Source of the DNA: Deltaproteobacteria bacterium | Lineage (GTDB): Bacteria; UBA10199; GCA-002796325; JACPFF01 | Reading direction: 5' to 3' | Assembly (NCBI GenBank): GCA_016183065.1 | Contig: JACPFF010000018.1 | Span: forward strand, 1-51,237 | Length of the DNA: 51,237 nt | Part shown: positions 1 to 35,930 of the stretch, piece after piece | Layout: each line of letters begins with the position of its first letter | How positions within the stretch are numbered: the first letter of the stretch is position 1 | Notes under the pieces: generated by a model | Databases searched by the model: none | The model's input: only the letters and a program-made list of their open reading frames with translations | What the model was told of the DNA's origin: nothing | Program-made: the position numbers and the translations under genes

Positions 1-230
1 CCTCTCGCGCGCGGTGCGCGCTGGGGGACTTCCTCGTCCACCCGCTTCGCGGGTGCCCGGACTCGGTCGTCGCCACTGCCCCCTCCAGCGGCAAAGCCGC
101 TGGAGCCTCCCCTTCAACGCCGCGGTGCGGCTGGGTCGTGGGGCCCCGGACGTCAGTCCGAGGGGTGTCGTGCTCCGGCGAAGTCTCCTCCCAGGGTGCC
201 ACGGGCGTGAGCCCGTGGGGCCCCACAATA
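1..230. repeat. Mosaic GC-rich hairpin repeat, longest copy
   Basis: A chain of short perfect hairpins joined by conserved linkers. The stems are 7-21 (6-bp arms, loop GGT), 39-55 (7-bp arms, loop TTC), 83-105 (10-bp arms, loop AAA), 119-131 (5-bp arms, loop GGT), 147-160 (5-bp arms, loop GTCA) and 199-218 (8-bp arms, loop GTGA). Linker text such as GACTTCCTCGTCC and GGACTCGGTCGTCGCC recurs in the copies at 33093-33225 and 35812-35930. The last part (141-224) recurs inverted at 4435-4515. No credible protein is encoded here. The copy may continue beyond the left edge of the window. Confidence 0.85.
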
Positions 231-348
231 ATTATATATAATTATATTATATTATGATAATAATGTATTTATATTTATATTAATATAATAAAACTCTTGA
301 CAATTTATAGACTTTTTGACAATACTTGTATGTTTTGAAGGAAAGCAT
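225..348. other. AT-rich intergenic spacer
   Basis: An almost pure A/T stretch (about 225-320) separates the GC-rich hairpin array from the XRE regulator gene. Its base composition is strikingly unlike the flanking sequence. It contains the proposed promoter at 297-326 and otherwise no gene that I can support. Confidence 0.6.
297..326 (+). promoter_or_regulatory. Putative sigma70-type promoter of the XRE gene
   Basis: A perfect -35 hexamer TTGACA (297-302) is followed after 18 bases by AATACT (321-326), which matches 4 of 6 positions of TATAAT. A transcript starting near 333 would just include the ribosome-binding site AAGGA ahead of the GTG at 349. A second TTGACA lies at 316-321 but has no good -10 partner. 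Confidence 0.4.
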
Positions 349-2386: not shown

Positions 2387-2848
2387 ATGTCGTCCCTGAG
2401 ACCACGTGTCCTCGTGCTCCATGGTCCGAACCTCGATCGGTTGGGAACACGGGAGCCCGCCATTTATGGGACCATGACGCTTGTGGCCCTGAATGAGCGG
2501 TTGCAGCAACGTGCCACCGCATGGAACATGGCACTCACGCTCTGCCAGTCCAACAGTGAAGCGGAAATCCTCGACAGGATTGCGGGTGCGCCATCCAAAT
2601 ATGATGTGGCCATGATCAATCCCGGAGGTCTGACCCATACAAGCGTTGCGCTTCGCGATGCCATTTGCGCGTCACCCCTCCCGTTCATTGAGGTCCATAT
2701 GAGCAATATTGCCGCGCGTGAGCCATTTCGGCGGCATTCCTATATTGCCCCGGTGGTGGCTGGTTCCGTTGTCGGTCTCGGTGTGATAAGCTATGAAGTG
2801 GCGCTCTGCGCCGCGCGCCAGATCTGGGACAACCGGCATGTGGCGTGA
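2387..2848 (+). CDS. aroQ: Type II 3-dehydroquinate dehydratase
   Basis: Converts 3-dehydroquinate to 3-dehydroshikimate in the shikimate pathway, cytoplasmic. At 153 residues it has the usual length. The N-terminal motif HGPNLDRLGTREPAIYG carries the catalytic Tyr27. The middle block INPGGLTHTSVALRDAI is near residues 77-93, and EVHMSN with the catalytic His104 is followed by AREPFRRHSY. The substrate loop reads CQSNSEAEILDRI where most relatives have QSNHEG, a mild deviation. It sits between two TPR genes, 3 bases after the first, and its stop overlaps a possible GTG start of the next. Assignment is secure. Confidence 0.95.
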   Translation: MSSLRPRVLVLHGPNLDRLGTREPAIYGTMTLVALNERLQQRATAWNMALTLCQSNSEAEILDRIAGAPSKYDVAMINPGGLTHTSVALRDAICASPLPFIEVHMSNIAAREPFRRHSYIAPVVAGSVVGLGVISYEVALCAARQIWDNRHVA

Positions 2849-2856
2849 AGGATGGT

Positions 2857-4431
2857 ATGGGGGATCTGCTCAACAAAGAGGCCGTACTGGAACAGGCACG
2901 CCTGTTGCTTGATGCCGGGCGTATCGACAAAGCCATTCACGAATATCAAAAACTCGCAGCGGCCGACCCCAATGATCTGCGGTTGTTGCTGCGCATTGCC
3001 GAACTTCACGTGAAGGTGAAACAGATCGCGCAGGCGGTGAAATTGTACCGTGAGGTGGCAGAGCGCTATATCGATGAGGGGTTTTACCTCAAGGCGGTGA
3101 CGGTCTACAAAACGGTGCTGCGCATCAACCCCTCGCTGCGCGAGGCGAACATGGCCCTGGCCGAACTCTATGAAAAAATGGGCCTCGACCAGGATGCGAT
3201 TCATCAATACCAGATCCTGCTGCGCTACTATGAGCAGAAGGGATTTACCGACAAGGTGCTCGAGCTGAGACGGCGCATCGTCGGTCTCGATCCTGACCAG
3301 GTCTCCCACCGGGTCCGTCTGGCGGAGACGTATCAATTGCAGGGCGATGACGCCGCCACCTTGCGCGAGTACGAAGTCCTGGCGGAGCAACTGAAGGATC
3401 GCGGGACGCACGAACAATTGATTGATTTATATGAACGGATCCTCTCGCGACGACCGGCGCATCTCGACATTCTCAAAAGACTCTGTCGCCTGCTGCATGT
3501 GAAAGGGGAATATCGGCGGATTCTCCCCTGGCTGTCAGGGAGTGATTCTCTGGCGGCCGAAGACCCCGATCTGATGCAATTGCATGCCGATGTCCTGGCC
3601 CGGCTGAATCAAATGGAATCCGCGCGGGGCAAATGGCGCGAACTCGCGGAACTCTGGGTCAGTCGCGGCGAGGAAGGTGAAGCAATGCGGGCCTATGAAG
3701 AGCTGCTGGCACTGGCGCCCGAAGAGGCGTCGGAGATTGAGGAAGCCGTGGAGCGTCTTCATCCCGGGACCTTTGCCGATCTGCGTCTCCGGGTGGATGC
3801 TCGCGTGACCGCACAGGCCAAGGCGGTGGAGGAAGAGGCAAAGCTGGAGGCGGCGCGTGCCGAGGCTGCGGGGCGCATTGCCGAACAGGAGGAAAAGGCG
3901 CGTGCACGGGCCTCGCGACGTGCACCGGCGGACTCGACGCCGGTGTTGCAGGGGGAGGAAGTGGAGGGAGCACGCCATCGGGCGGAAGCGAGCGTGCAGC
4001 TGGGCGATGCCTATCTCCAGATGGGTATGCGCGAGGAAGGGAGTGAGGAATATCGCAAGGCGATCGATTGGTATCGTCGTCTCCTCACCTCAGGGGCTGG
4101 CTCACAGAGAGTGATCGACGAATTGAGGCGGCTGGAGCAACTCCTGAGCCTTGGCGATGTCACCGAATCGTCCGATCCCCGTCCGGTCGCCAAAGCAGAA
4201 GCCGTTGTCATTGACAAGGCTGCGACACCACCTCCGGCTGTCTCATTGGCTCCCCCGCCTGCAGCGCACACGCAGTCGACTGCTCCCTCGACCGCGCCCA
4301 CGTCCACGCGGTCGCCCGACCGCCCCGCAGTCCCGCCCCGTGCAACGCCCAGACGACCGGCATCATCGACGCAGCCGTCCGTGCCTCCGCCGGGGGAAAA
4401 GGGAAAGAAAAAACGGATTTCGTACGTGTAG
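2857..4431 (+). CDS. Large TPR-repeat protein, delta-proteobacterial type
   Basis: About 524 residues. The first half (to residue about 300) is a run of tetratricopeptide repeats beginning LLNKEAVLEQARLLLDAGRI, a pattern common in deltaproteobacterial TPR proteins. Residues about 310-360 form an Ala/Glu/Arg-rich coiled coil. Another repeat follows (VQLGDAYLQMGMREEGSEEY). The last 100 residues are Pro/Ser/Thr-rich and end in a basic tail GKKKRISYV. I prefer the ATG at 2857 (AAGGA 4 bases upstream, and a start typical of the family). A GTG at 2845 overlaps the aroQ stop and would add 4 residues. There is no signal peptide. It is likely a cytoplasmic assembly or interaction protein, partner unknown. 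Confidence 0.8.
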   Translation: MGDLLNKEAVLEQARLLLDAGRIDKAIHEYQKLAAADPNDLRLLLRIAELHVKVKQIAQAVKLYREVAERYIDEGFYLKAVTVYKTVLRINPSLREANMALAELYEKMGLDQDAIHQYQILLRYYEQKGFTDKVLELRRRIVGLDPDQVSHRVRLAETYQLQGDDAATLREYEVLAEQLKDRGTHEQLIDLYERILSRRPAHLDILKRLCRLLHVKGEYRRILPWLSGSDSLAAEDPDLMQLHADVLARLNQMESARGKWRELAELWVSRGEEGEAMRAYEELLALAPEEASEIEEAVERLHPGTFADLRLRVDARVTAQAKAVEEEAKLEAARAEAAGRIAEQEEKARARASRRAPADSTPVLQGEEVEGARHRAEASVQLGDAYLQMGMREEGSEEYRKAIDWYRRLLTSGAGSQRVIDELRRLEQLLSLGDVTESSDPRPVAKAEAVVIDKAATPPPAVSLAPPPAAHTQSTAPSTAPTSTRSPDRPAVPPRATPRRPASSTQPSVPPPGEKGKKKRISYV

Positions 4432-4434
4432 GGT

Positions 4435-4515
4435 AGGGCCCCACGGGCTCACGCCTGTGGCACCTTGGGAGGAGGCTTCGCCTGAGCACGATACCTCCCC
4501 GGACTGACGTCCTGT
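4435..4515 (-). repeat. Mosaic hairpin repeat, inverted copy of the terminal module
   Basis: This is the reverse complement of the end of the array at 141-224. It has a hairpin CCACGGGCTCACGCCTGTGG (4441-4460), a linker containing GGGAGGAGGCTTCGCC, and a second hairpin around CGGACTGACGTCC. The first stem carries one G-T wobble relative to the copy near position 200. It lies between the TPR gene and the ATPase gene and could influence transcription between them. Confidence 0.8.
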
Positions 4516-4559
4516 GCCTTGCATTTTTTCCCCCAACAGCATACGCTCCGCACCGCTCC

Positions 4560-24580: not shown

Positions 24581-24752
24581 CAGCACCTCCTTGAAATGGA
24601 CGGAGAAGAGCAAGGGCCATGCCAGAATGATTATGTAGCCATATCAACGAGTTCTGCATGGAACACATTGAGGGTGGATGTGTCGCACTGTCGCGATGTC
24701 CAACACGGATGGTCACGAATCGGTCGTTGCATGGCCACTCAGGTGAAGCCTC

Positions 24753-24800
24753 CGTCTCAGGGTGCCACGGGTGTGGGTCCACGGGGTCCCACGAGAAATC
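24753..24800 (+). repeat. Degenerate mosaic hairpin repeat fragment
   Basis: CAGGGTGCCACGGG at 24759-24772 and the following ACGGGGTCCCACGAG match the terminal module at 191-224 (CAGGGTGCCACGGGC...GTGGGGCCCCAC), but the stem is no longer well paired. It lies in the roughly 300-base spacer between divergent genes at 24580 (minus) and 24880 (plus). I see nothing else recognisable in that spacer. Confidence 0.6.
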
Positions 24801-32509: not shown

Positions 32510-33022
32510 TTATCCCCCCGCGCGTGGTACGGGACGCGGTGCCGGATGGGTCTCGGCGATCTGATGTATGGAATCATCCATGCGCATACTCGCCTGTTGC
32601 TCGCTGTCCAACAATTGCTGCAACGAGAGGTTGTGAAAGAATTCGGAAATATGCCGGATGATCGTCTGCCACATCGGACGCATGCTGCAATCTTTCACAT
32701 GCACGCAATTCTCTTTTTGTCCGGTGAAGTGATTGCAAATCTGTTGGTTCCCGATTTCAAAACCGCCGCCCAGCGCGTGCAATGCATCGCTCACCGAGAT
32801 GCTCGCGGCACTCCGCGCGAGCCGAAAGCCGCCGCAGAGCCCGCGAGTACTCTCCACCAGTTTTTGCCGCTTGAGAATATTCATCAGCTTGGCCACGTAC
32901 TGCGTGGAGAGGGCCTCCATCCGGGCAATTTCACTGATCGAGAGCGGTGTGTCCGGCGTGGCATGCCTCGCCACGGCGAGCAAACACCGCAAACCATATT
33001 CTTCCTGCGCCGTAATCTTCAT
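32510..33022 (-). CDS. Rrf2-family regulator of the SUF operon
   Basis: 170 residues from the ATG at 33022. The winged helix begins MKITAQEEYGLRCLLAVARH; the recognition region ISEIARMEALSTQYVAKLMN and LVESTRGLCGGFRLAR are typical of IscR/CymR-type Rrf2 proteins. Cysteines at 96, 106 and 112 (ICNHFTGQKENCVHVKDC) occupy the cluster-binding loop, with spacing longer than in E. coli IscR, so Fe-S sensing is likely. The C-terminal 45 residues are a polar extension. As first gene of the SUF operon it probably adjusts expression to cluster supply. Confidence 0.92.
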   Translation of the reverse strand: MKITAQEEYGLRCLLAVARHATPDTPLSISEIARMEALSTQYVAKLMNILKRQKLVESTRGLCGGFRLARSAASISVSDALHALGGGFEIGNQQICNHFTGQKENCVHVKDCSMRPMWQTIIRHISEFFHNLSLQQLLDSEQQASMRMDDSIHQIAETHPAPRPVPRAGG

Positions 33023-33092
33023 CGGACGCCTCGCCCGCCATCGTTTGTCGTGTGATCGCTCGAGATCGCCCCTGCGACGTTTTCGACTATTA

Positions 33093-33225
33093 CAGGGGCT
33101 CACGTACCCTCCGGCTCCGCCTGCGGGTACTTCCTCGTCCACCCAGCTTCGCTGAGTCCCCGGACTCGGTCGTCGCCTCCCCCTCAACGCCGCGGTGCGG
33201 CTGGGTCATGCGACCCCACTGAAGT
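33093..33225. repeat. Mosaic hairpin repeat, third copy
   Basis: Shares linkers TACTTCCTCGTCCACCC and CCCGGACTCGGTCGTCGCC with 25-75, and the block CCTCAACGCCGCGGTGCGGC with 112-131. Its first hairpin uses different arms (GTACCC and GGGTAC) from the GCGCGC arms of the first copy. Its second stem has arms ACCCAGC and GCTGAGT around the same TTC loop. The 10-bp AAA-loop module is missing. It lies upstream of the Rrf2 gene and of the AT-rich spacer before the orphan membrane protein. Confidence 0.8.
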
Positions 33226-33648
33226 TATGCTCAAGAGCTTCTCGGGTGTCAAGAATATACTATACTATTTAGTATTGGTTTGCAAATTCTGTAATATATT
33301 GATTATATTGATAAAATATGTTGATACCGATTTTTTTGCCGACGATCTTTTCTACACATGGACTACCACACCGCAGACCTCTCTTATCGGAGAATTTGGC
33401 AGCGCTCCTTCAGACGAAAAAATACCGTAAACATTTGATATAAAAGTAAGAATTGGTAATTTCACCATAGAGTCAAAAAATTGTCAAAGGGTTTTTTTTA
33501 CCCAAAGCTTGTCCGTAGGCGTCTTTTGAGGCATTTCCCTGCACCAGATACTATATGCATGGGGCCACGGTCCCACGAATGTGGTGCGATGTGAAAATTA
33601 GTGTCGGTACGCACGGGGAAAGTGCGACGTGATGGAGGCCAAGACCGT
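33226..33648. other. AT-rich spacer upstream of the orphan membrane protein
   Basis: About 420 bases, AT-rich from 33240 to 33520, with no supportable gene. GGGT and ACCC flank a run of six T residues (around 33490-33505), making a weak hairpin. GGGGCCACGGTCCCACG near 33559 resembles a fragment of the hairpin repeat family. GGAGG at 33634-33638 is the likely ribosome-binding site for the ATG at 33649. Confidence 0.5.
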
Positions 33649-35799
33649 ATGATATCGACGCCGAGTTCCCTCCGTCATCCGTCAAGCCGCCCAGTGCGGC
33701 CATCGATCATTCATCATCCGCAACAGATGCAACGAGGTTGGTATCACAACAGTGCCGGATTGTACGTGCGGGTATCACCCTCGATAGCTCATGGCATGGG
33801 CTCTCGTCAGTTTTTTCCTGTTGGAAGTGATGGGCCATCGGCGGGCATGCTACTACGCCCAACAGTCGAGGAGAGGATCCGTTTCGGTTCGCATCAGATA
33901 TTACTGCCGCCGGGGGTTGCGAATGGCTATGTCGATGTAGAATCAGGTGCGACCACTCTCTTGGGTCCCGGTGGGTCTTCAGTGGTATTTGGCGATATCG
34001 ACCATCCTGTACTTGGCGTGGGGTATCGCCGTACGGCTTCGGCGCCACTATCGGGCGCTGCTTCACAGTATGTCCCACCCTTGCCAACCGGAGTGCATTC
34101 CCCGGTGCCTCCTCCGGCGGGGATGGGGAGCAAGTCTTTTTGGAACTTGGCCGTGCAGGGGGGGCCACTGGTGTTTGCGGCACTTGGTGATTGGGCGCGG
34201 GCACACAGCACCGGCGATAGTCTCTATGCCGCCGGTACCTACAGGGACGATCCGCTCGGGACCCAAGATCCCGACAGTGTCACGTCGCTGCCGATGGAGT
34301 TCCTGATCCCGAGTGAGTTTTGGGGGAGGCCCCTTTCCGAGGTCGATCGCCAGGAACTCGATGTCGTTGCCGCACAATATGCCCAATGGTACTTTTGGGG
34401 AAAACTGTTCAAGTATGGCACGTCATTGGGGGCCAATGCGGCGGCCATTCGGAAAATCCATGATGACCCGACCCTCTCCTCTCTGTCGCGCGAACATATG
34501 GTCAAGATGAATTGGTATGATGCCTTGGGCAATATGGCGTTTTTGGTCGAAAAGGGGTGTTATGCGCTTTGTTTGGGTGCTGTAGGGATGGCCCAGTTTG
34601 CTGGTCGTCAATCCCCGTTGTGGGAAGTCGGGTATGTGGGAGGTGCGCTCATCTTGAATACGGCGTTGGCCCTGGCCACACTGGCGTGGTACGGCAAGGT
34701 CAAGGCGGGTGTCTATATGTTGCGCGAGGAACGGGCCCAGTATCAGGAGGCCGTTGCGCGTAGTGAGGCGTATGACATCAACGGGGCACACCTGAATGTT
34801 GTCCTCTTTAACCTGGCCAATGCCGTTCCACGCGTACTCAAGCACTTCGTGGCCCATGCCACGACGCTCGCCTTGGGTCTCTACTGGTATGCCCCTGAGC
34901 TCTTCTCGTTTTTGGGAGGGGTCGATTATCTTCGAGAAGCAACAGAGCGGTTGGGAGAGGGGACGGCCGCTGAGCATCTCTATCGGTGGTCGAATTTCGG
35001 GTTTCGCGTACCGTTACCACTTGTGGTTGCGGGACTGGCGTTTGGTGTGTTCGCGCCGATATTCGGCGTCGGAACGGCGTGGAAAAAAACCCGTCGGGAT
35101 CTGGCGGAAATTCGGGGACTGCGCAGGGAGCTTGCAGCCGGCGAGACCACGCGTGAGACCATCCTTCCGAATGGATCGAAGCCAAAGACCGTGGCCGTGC
35201 GTCTCAGTGAATTGCGACGGGAGATTGCTGCGGACAATATCGGCATAGTCGGGGCTTTGGCGGTGTTTGGGACGGGGGTCGCGGTCAGTTATCCTGCGTT
35301 GGAACCGCATGCGCTCCTTTTGACTGCCCTTTATGGCTTTGCGACATTCATGCAGTATAATGTGCGGGAATGGCCGGCCATTCGTGCACTCTGTTCCACT
35401 CTGCCGGAGCGTTTCCTTCGTTACGTGCACCACCAGTCTTCGGCAGAAGTCGTGATCATCGCGCCGAAAAAGGCGCCGTTATGGCAGCGGGCGGCCGTCA
35501 ATGTTCGCAAGACCTGGCGCGAGTTACTTGCGGCACGACAGGTTGTGAAAAGCTATGGCAATGCAAAACGCGCCAATGGCATACCAATGACCTGGTGGCA
35601 GCGCGCAGTGCCCTACCGTATCAACAAATGGCGACGGGAATTTCATGACTGGCGGAAATTTTTGCAACTATATTTCGGGACGGAGAAACAACCGTCGCGC
35701 ATGGTCCGTGCCTTTGCGTGGCTCGGGGGACGCTTTCGCCGGAATCGCAGTCAGGCATTGCCCCCTGCTGATGGCCAAGACGACGTGGCGAATTCGTAA
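33649..35799 (+). CDS. Orphan multi-pass membrane protein
   Basis: About 716 residues from the ATG at 33649 (GGAGG 10 bases upstream); a GTG at 33601 would add 16. The first 140 residues are Ser/Pro/His-rich and soluble. Hydrophobic segments follow, for example CYALCLGAVGMAQFAG, VGGALILNTALALATLAW, ATTLALGLYWYAPELFSFLG, PLPLVVAGLAFGVFAPIFGV and IVGALAVFGTGVAVSYPAL, giving roughly five to seven spans. The last 110 residues are strongly basic with many Trp/Arg. I recognise no family. It stands alone between two hairpin repeat arrays and an AT-rich spacer, which hints at a recently acquired or rapidly evolving locus. Confidence 0.8.
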   Translation: MISTPSSLRHPSSRPVRPSIIHHPQQMQRGWYHNSAGLYVRVSPSIAHGMGSRQFFPVGSDGPSAGMLLRPTVEERIRFGSHQILLPPGVANGYVDVESGATTLLGPGGSSVVFGDIDHPVLGVGYRRTASAPLSGAASQYVPPLPTGVHSPVPPPAGMGSKSFWNLAVQGGPLVFAALGDWARAHSTGDSLYAAGTYRDDPLGTQDPDSVTSLPMEFLIPSEFWGRPLSEVDRQELDVVAAQYAQWYFWGKLFKYGTSLGANAAAIRKIHDDPTLSSLSREHMVKMNWYDALGNMAFLVEKGCYALCLGAVGMAQFAGRQSPLWEVGYVGGALILNTALALATLAWYGKVKAGVYMLREERAQYQEAVARSEAYDINGAHLNVVLFNLANAVPRVLKHFVAHATTLALGLYWYAPELFSFLGGVDYLREATERLGEGTAAEHLYRWSNFGFRVPLPLVVAGLAFGVFAPIFGVGTAWKKTRRDLAEIRGLRRELAAGETTRETILPNGSKPKTVAVRLSELRREIAADNIGIVGALAVFGTGVAVSYPALEPHALLLTALYGFATFMQYNVREWPAIRALCSTLPERFLRYVHHQSSAEVVIIAPKKAPLWQRAAVNVRKTWRELLAARQVVKSYGNAKRANGIPMTWWQRAVPYRINKWRREFHDWRKFLQLYFGTEKQPSRMVRAFAWLGGRFRRNRSQALPPADGQDDVANS

Positions 35800-35811
35800 T
35801 CCACTATTGGA

Positions 35812-35930
35812 GGGGCTCACGTCGCCCCCCCAACGGGCAAAGCCCGTTGGGTCCCCCCCTCTCGCGCGCGGTGCGCGCTGGAGGGACTCCCTCGTCCAGC
35901 CGCTTCGCTAGGCCGGCAGTGTCTTATGAA
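35812..35930. repeat. Mosaic hairpin repeat, fourth copy
   Basis: The stem CCCAACGGGC (35829-35838), loop AAA, GCCCGTTGGG (35842-35851) corresponds to the AAA-loop stem at 83-105. It differs in four positions of each arm, all compensated. It is followed by the GGT-loop stem at 35864-35878, identical to 7-21. Then comes the linker GACTCCCTCGTCC and a degenerate TTC-loop stem. The module order differs from the first copy (AAA-loop first). It lies between the convergent orphan gene and the transporter gene, a place where it could terminate transcription. Confidence 0.85.

Follow-up and report, generated by a model that had tools for sequence, protein, structure and literature searches.

A high-copy palindromic repeat with a core of about 75 bp, inserted between and within genes in a Deltaproteobacteria genome and in other bacterial phyla

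Rickettsia palindromic elements (RPEs) are small palindromic repeats that lie between genes and in frame in unrelated genes, and their mobiliser is unknown (PMC10969869, PMC3733652). The GTAG and CGTC REPs, including intragenic units, have also been described (PMC3733652), and the CGTC REPs are palindromic, occur in many phyla and in genes too, and do so without a transposase (Di Nocera 2013, PMC3733652). In-frame palindromic inserts in essential genes have hitherto been regarded as a peculiarity of Rickettsia, together with some REP examples; the same behavior is now seen in unrelated uncultured phyla, where the empty sites are clean and the copies number in the dozens. The window analysed here is the 51,237-nucleotide stretch of JACPFF010000018.1; in the 1.97 Mb draft genome (G000) this contig is C26, and the window is read from its base 1.

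Direct reading confirmed all five hairpin-bearing places named in the initial annotation. Copy 1 (1..226, forward strand) is incomplete at its left because the window begins at contig base 1, an assembly break. Its modules, all on the forward strand, are an H4b remnant (1-24), the H2 TTC-loop module (about 25-77), the H3 AAA-loop hairpin CTCCAGCGGC-AAA-GCCGCTGGAG (83-105), which is allele A1 and the core of the cross-phylum unit, H4a (about 114-134), RE GTGGGGCCCC (138-147), the H5 GTCA-loop hairpin (about 144-163), H6 (about 168-195), and the H7 GTGA-loop hairpin (200-218) followed by RE to 226. Copy 2 (4430..4518, reverse strand) consists of the H5-H6-H7-RE part only and lies directly 3' of the stop codon of a TPR open reading frame (2845-4431). 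Copy 3 (33087..33218, forward strand), upstream of the reverse-strand open reading frame 32510-33187, contains the left end CTATTACAGGGGCTCACG, H1, H2, H4a, and a degraded right end, without H3. Copy 4 (35803..35910, forward strand), directly 3' of the open reading frame 33601-35799, contains the left end CTATTGGAGGGGCTCACG, H3 allele A2 (35829-35851), H4b, and a decayed H2, and scores 79.8 bits with the core covariance model. Copy 5 (24738..24793, forward strand) is a decayed H6-H7-RE remnant. Compared with dinucleotide shuffles, the folds of 1-230 (z -4.0) and 35812-35930 (z -3.0) are far better and that of 4435-4515 is moderate (z -2.4), while 33093-33225 is not significant (z -0.75) and 24753-24800 shows nothing (z 0). 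The H3 arms of copy 1 and those of copy 4, CCCAACGGGC/GCCCGTTGGG, differ by four changes per arm, each of them compensated, as had been claimed. The missing modules noted earlier are likewise real, and head-to-tail fusions of whole copies occur in addition, but the module order is not freely shuffled: most copies keep LE-(H1-H2)-H3-H4-RE-(H5-H6-H7), in which the bracketed modules are optional.

Scarcity of further copies, which the initial annotation had said would count against its proposal, is not seen. A covariance model of the core (70 sequences, 21 pairs) found 121 units in the 1.97 Mb genome, so at least that number is present, and BLAST with window positions 1-232 gave at least 62 matches there, with 40 of 181 candidates scored. 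One fully read contig of 364 kb contained 48 loci, which occupy 6.2 kb or 1.7% of its sequence; any copy number past the covariance-model matches is an extrapolation from this contig. In this genome, H1-H2 and H5-H7, which are hairpin families in their own right, are fused to the core in mosaics of up to about 230 bp. H1-H2-like and H7-like sequences occur alone elsewhere in the class, in genomes G003, G014, and G028, and the mosaic therefore joins at least three hairpin families. Most H3 variants inside the genome belong to a small number of recurring alleles (GCGGC, CGGGC, and CCGGC). At three places (C15:70255-70394, C15:213747-214022, and C15:220543-220766), an H3 variant is split open by a further segment of about 55 to 60 nt, GGGTCAAGGCCCAGCTNTGCTGGGCCGCGAAGCANAGTCGAAGACTNTGCGGAGTG, which is itself hairpin forming and is possibly a nested repeat.

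The core unit of about 75 bp comprises three hairpins: HL (CTATTAY-AGGGGC...GCCCC), H3 (a variable stem with outer arms CTCCA/TGGAG), and H4. On the G-rich strand the order is H4 (variable), H3 (a 10-bp variable stem), and HL (G4C/GC4), followed by a T-rich, CTATTAY-like end. The consensus of the C-rich strand is CTATTAY-A-GGGGC-TYRCGTC-GCCCC-CTCCA-[variable arm]-loop-[variable arm]-TGGAG-CCTCCCCCTC(AA)CGC-[H4]-GCT. The inner arms of H3 vary freely yet remain paired, with 95.8% of cells pairing among 26 distinct ungapped variants, and H3 alone has 30 double changes, compared with 8.6 in shuffles. Across the whole core in 70 units there were 132 double changes, compared with 36 after shuffling, and 12 pairs had changes on both sides; none of 500 shuffles reached the observed score. 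The proposed covariation of the stems thus has statistical support, and independent compensatory changes are clearest across genomes rather than inside the window's own genome. HL never varies and so carries no covariation information. H4 pairs in 74% of cells and is unpaired in about half of the 70 aligned rows, mainly in Nitrospirota, where many copies have a direct repeat GCGAGC..GCGAGC in place of the pairing. Sequence hardly varies in the outer arms, the linkers, and the first hairpin, and with the third hairpin unpaired in about half of the rows, the earlier statement that selection acts on folding rather than sequence overstates the case. Nor are the compensated stems decisive for selection on the fold, because palindrome repair by template switching also yields them. 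Mismatches of the G.U kind in H3 number 12 on the G-rich strand and 4 on the other (P = 0.04, a weak difference), which hints that the G-rich strand is the folding one.

The core was found in 22 of 46 genomes of the window's class, with 1 to 121 units per carrier genome, and two genomes of the same genus differ in having seven units (G019) and none (G007). A wider search of a species-level genome collection, with the outer arms fixed and the inner stem free (GCCCCCTCCA N9-19 TGGAGCCTCCCC), matched at least 97 stretches; less than about one chance match is estimated at even base composition, and more at high GC. Among the matches listed were Nitrospirota (Nitrospirae/Nitrospiria and Troglogloeales), Thermodesulfobacteriota (Syntrophus and Syntrophaceae), Syntrophorhabdus, several unplaced Deltaproteobacteria, and Bdellovibrionales. 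All of the cross-phylum carriers are metagenome bins, any single one of which could be contaminated, and many independent studies are represented. A match in Sandaracinaceae (L162) that lacks HL, probably a chance or independent occurrence, was dropped from the list of phyla. No copies were found in the viral contigs, phages, and plasmids searched. High copy number, presence in many genomes, and covarying stems bear out the earlier suggestion of a mobile, structured hairpin element.

That the copies are insertions is demonstrated by sites that are empty in a second genome of the same genus. In G019, one unit interrupts the gene for PBP1A and another interrupts rimP, whereas G007 has both genes uninterrupted; the net difference is +75 nt at each site, and the reading frame continues. 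A Nitrospirota spacer similarly contains an element in L100 and none in its relative L121. The flank just outside HL carries a graded CTATTAY motif, which looks like a target preference because the empty PBP1A site already has it in part (CTTTTAT). The junctions are compatible with a target duplication of 0 to 5 nt, the exact ends being ambiguous. A few copies are flanked by long direct repeats (17 to 29 bp), some beside tRNA genes, and a long target duplication was rejected as a general rule. Copies near tRNA genes with direct repeats of 17 to 29 bp or more were seen at L126, L133, and L040, the repeats at L040 including a partial copy of tRNA-Arg.

Orientation was counted in 142 distinct copies outside the window's own genome by simple open reading frame calling, the gene calls of the own genome being too crude for this use. 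Of the 70 copies in spacers that separate co-directional genes, 58 had the G-rich strand as the sense strand and 12 had the opposite orientation (binomial P = 1e-8), and deep inside open reading frames the ratio was 19 to 1; the opposite orientation is rarer near genes. The median distance from a copy to the start codon is 20 nt. At loci L096-L192, the end of the G-rich strand, CCCC-TATAAT, forms a perfect -10-like hexamer, often 20 to 40 nt from the start codon.

Some 25 copies sit within genes for conserved proteins, where they keep the reading frame and add about 25 residues. The insert peptide is almost always ..(V/R)EGEAPxALPxEGATRAPxI.., seen also as ..REGEAPxALPxEGATRAPxI.., and reads ..RGRLHPALPVEGATRAP.. 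where H3 has a bulge. PBP1A, MetG, PheT, NadB, IspE, ArgH, ScpB, LeuS, and Era score above their NCBIfam cutoffs despite the insert, which in Era is in the opposite sense; RimP with its insert matches its models below their cutoffs. Further hosts include an aldo/keto reductase, a UvrD-like helicase, and a cytochrome c, and alignment of the LeuRS to solved structures breaks at the insert. The window's own genome has an acpS-like gene with an open insert of 76 residues, an argument weakened because other PPTase-like genes exist, as well as a gcvP-like open reading frame with a core unit and a Y1 transposase open reading frame (L032, C8:65820 region) that one hairpin-mosaic copy interrupts. Additionally, one DnaJ/TPR-like open reading frame (L140:1-1135) seems to have two in-frame core units, and a unit lies in or beside the thpR-recA region in three genomes (L034, L171, and L017), possibly by chance. 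For annotators, odd ..REGEAPTALPLEGATRAPII.. segments in proteins are to be read as insertions.

The repeat disperses by insertion, is patchily present, has variable stems that stay paired, survives with a strand bias, and passes in frame through genes. We think it probable, if well short of certain, that it is a non-autonomous mobile palindromic repeat with a core of about 75 bp that is moved in trans and survives where it is harmless. An enzyme acting in trans would recognize the folded single strand and move copies, preferring CTATTAY targets, and the simplest candidate is an HUH/Y1-type transposase, as proposed for REPs. The best guess falls on this class in view of the mode of movement proposed for REPs, the strand-biased presence of the element, and the target-like motif upstream; the few copies with direct repeats of 17 to 29 bp count against it because the Y1 mechanism does not predict them. 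Copies would persist where the added RNA or peptide does no harm, the 75-bp length keeping the frame and one G-sense frame being open, and the hairpins may be maintained because the moving enzyme, the mRNA, or both need them. No transposase was found near the units and no mobile gene recurs beside them, the open reading frames they share being either housekeeping genes or translated repeat sequence. The element flanked none of the 29 Y1_Tnp loci examined, of which only one (L094) had a single left-end-like motif.

Movement by a RAYT within a classical REP/BIME system would suit small, high-copy hairpins in mosaic arrangement, and the genome does have one intact RAYT-like gene, with Y1_Tnp in 29 of 30 relatives. 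We nevertheless consider it very unlikely, given that the Y1 loci are without flanking modules, that no GTAG tag is present, and that the inverted repeat on either side of the RAYT-like gene, GGGTACGTCATAC, is a different one. The gene in question (L031, G000:C2 about 1500-2340) encodes a Y1 protein of 196 amino acids, and GGGTACGTCATAC also directly adjoins an element copy at C15:317773; this genome may thus hold a second repeat family of the TIR type. At L093, a classical GTAG REP hairpin (GTAGGGGCGAAC..GTTCGCCCCTAC) lies beside a Y1 gene, and because it was picked up, the test of RAYT flanks can detect REPs. Descent from an ordinary DDE insertion sequence as a MITE, with which the partial match between the two ends of some copies in the own genome (GGGGCTCACG...CGTGGGGCCCC) would agree, is highly improbable: neither terminal inverted repeats nor a constant target duplication is apparent for the core unit (in the own genome there is as a rule none that is long, and 0 to 5 nt is ambiguous), and no parent insertion sequence is nearby.

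The strand bias, the short distance upstream of start codons, the covarying stems with G.U-type mismatches on the G-rich strand, and the CCCC-TATAAT end of that strand might instead reflect a functional RNA (a structure between cistrons or in a 5' leader) or a promoter that is kept for regulating the downstream gene, and in 68 of 70 cases the G-rich strand has the more stable fold, partly as an effect of composition. Many copies are mid-ORF, however, the sites are not kept between genomes of the same genus, copy number ranges from 0 to 121, and the genes affected are unrelated, which makes such a role quite unlikely. There was no match to Rfam over the gathering threshold, and a terminator was rejected, there being no U-run after HL on the G-rich strand. 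It is also unlikely that the stems are matched solely by quasi-palindrome (template-switch) repair with no selection on the fold. Such repair would give compensated changes in DNA alone, and H4 arms are inverted repeats in some copies and direct repeats in others, but it does not predict strand-asymmetric mismatches or strand-biased placement, and dispersal would go unexplained. Going beyond the preferred reading of a non-autonomous repeat moved in trans, we entertain tentatively, and with some doubt, a new superfamily of 75-bp palindromic elements in at least three phyla that would move in a strand-specific manner and would be shaped as a translatable 25-residue insert adding peptides to essential enzymes. 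The element makes two questions testable, namely, how palindromic repeats are moved in the absence of a RAYT, and whether the inserts are tolerated passengers or a source of new protein segments.

The initial annotation's "undescribed class" is not supported as stated, since palindromic interspersed repeats, including in-frame intragenic ones, are known (RPEs and GTAG/CGTC REPs, PMC3733652). That annotation also overlooked the insertions that keep the reading frame of genes, the bias in orientation, and the occurrence in several phyla. The tested strings of element sequence had no match in the literature searched, and the text of PMC3733652 does not mention Nitrospira or Geobacter. Like RPEs, the repeat occurs in frame in unrelated protein genes, here with empty sites, which is a likeness of behavior; its core of 75 bp has three hairpins, whereas RPEs are about 150 bp, and its host phyla are Nitrospirota, Thermodesulfobacteriota, Bdellovibrionales, and the window's class. 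With the CGTC REPs it shares a near-invariant CGTC just before the stem-side GCCCC. Those REPs have a stem of 8 to 9 bp starting with AT, a loop of 4 to 5 nt, and a CCA tail (PMC3733652), whereas here the stem is 10 bp and starts with C-T, the loop is 3 nt, the CCA tail is missing, and the CGTC lies in the HL loop; with stem start, loop, and tail all differing from the published definition, the repeat falls outside that family. High copy number, mosaics, and position between co-directional genes recall the REP/BIME-RAYT (GTAG) systems, from which it is set apart by the lack of a GTAG-type tetranucleotide beside the hairpin and of a RAYT flanked by the element. In its modular architecture the mosaic of the window's genome resembles the pneumococcal BOX elements and other modular MITEs, but its modules are separate hairpin families, each with its own spread. 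We read the element as a non-autonomous palindromic repeat resembling RPE and REP/BIME: the kind of element is known, and the form that it takes here is new.
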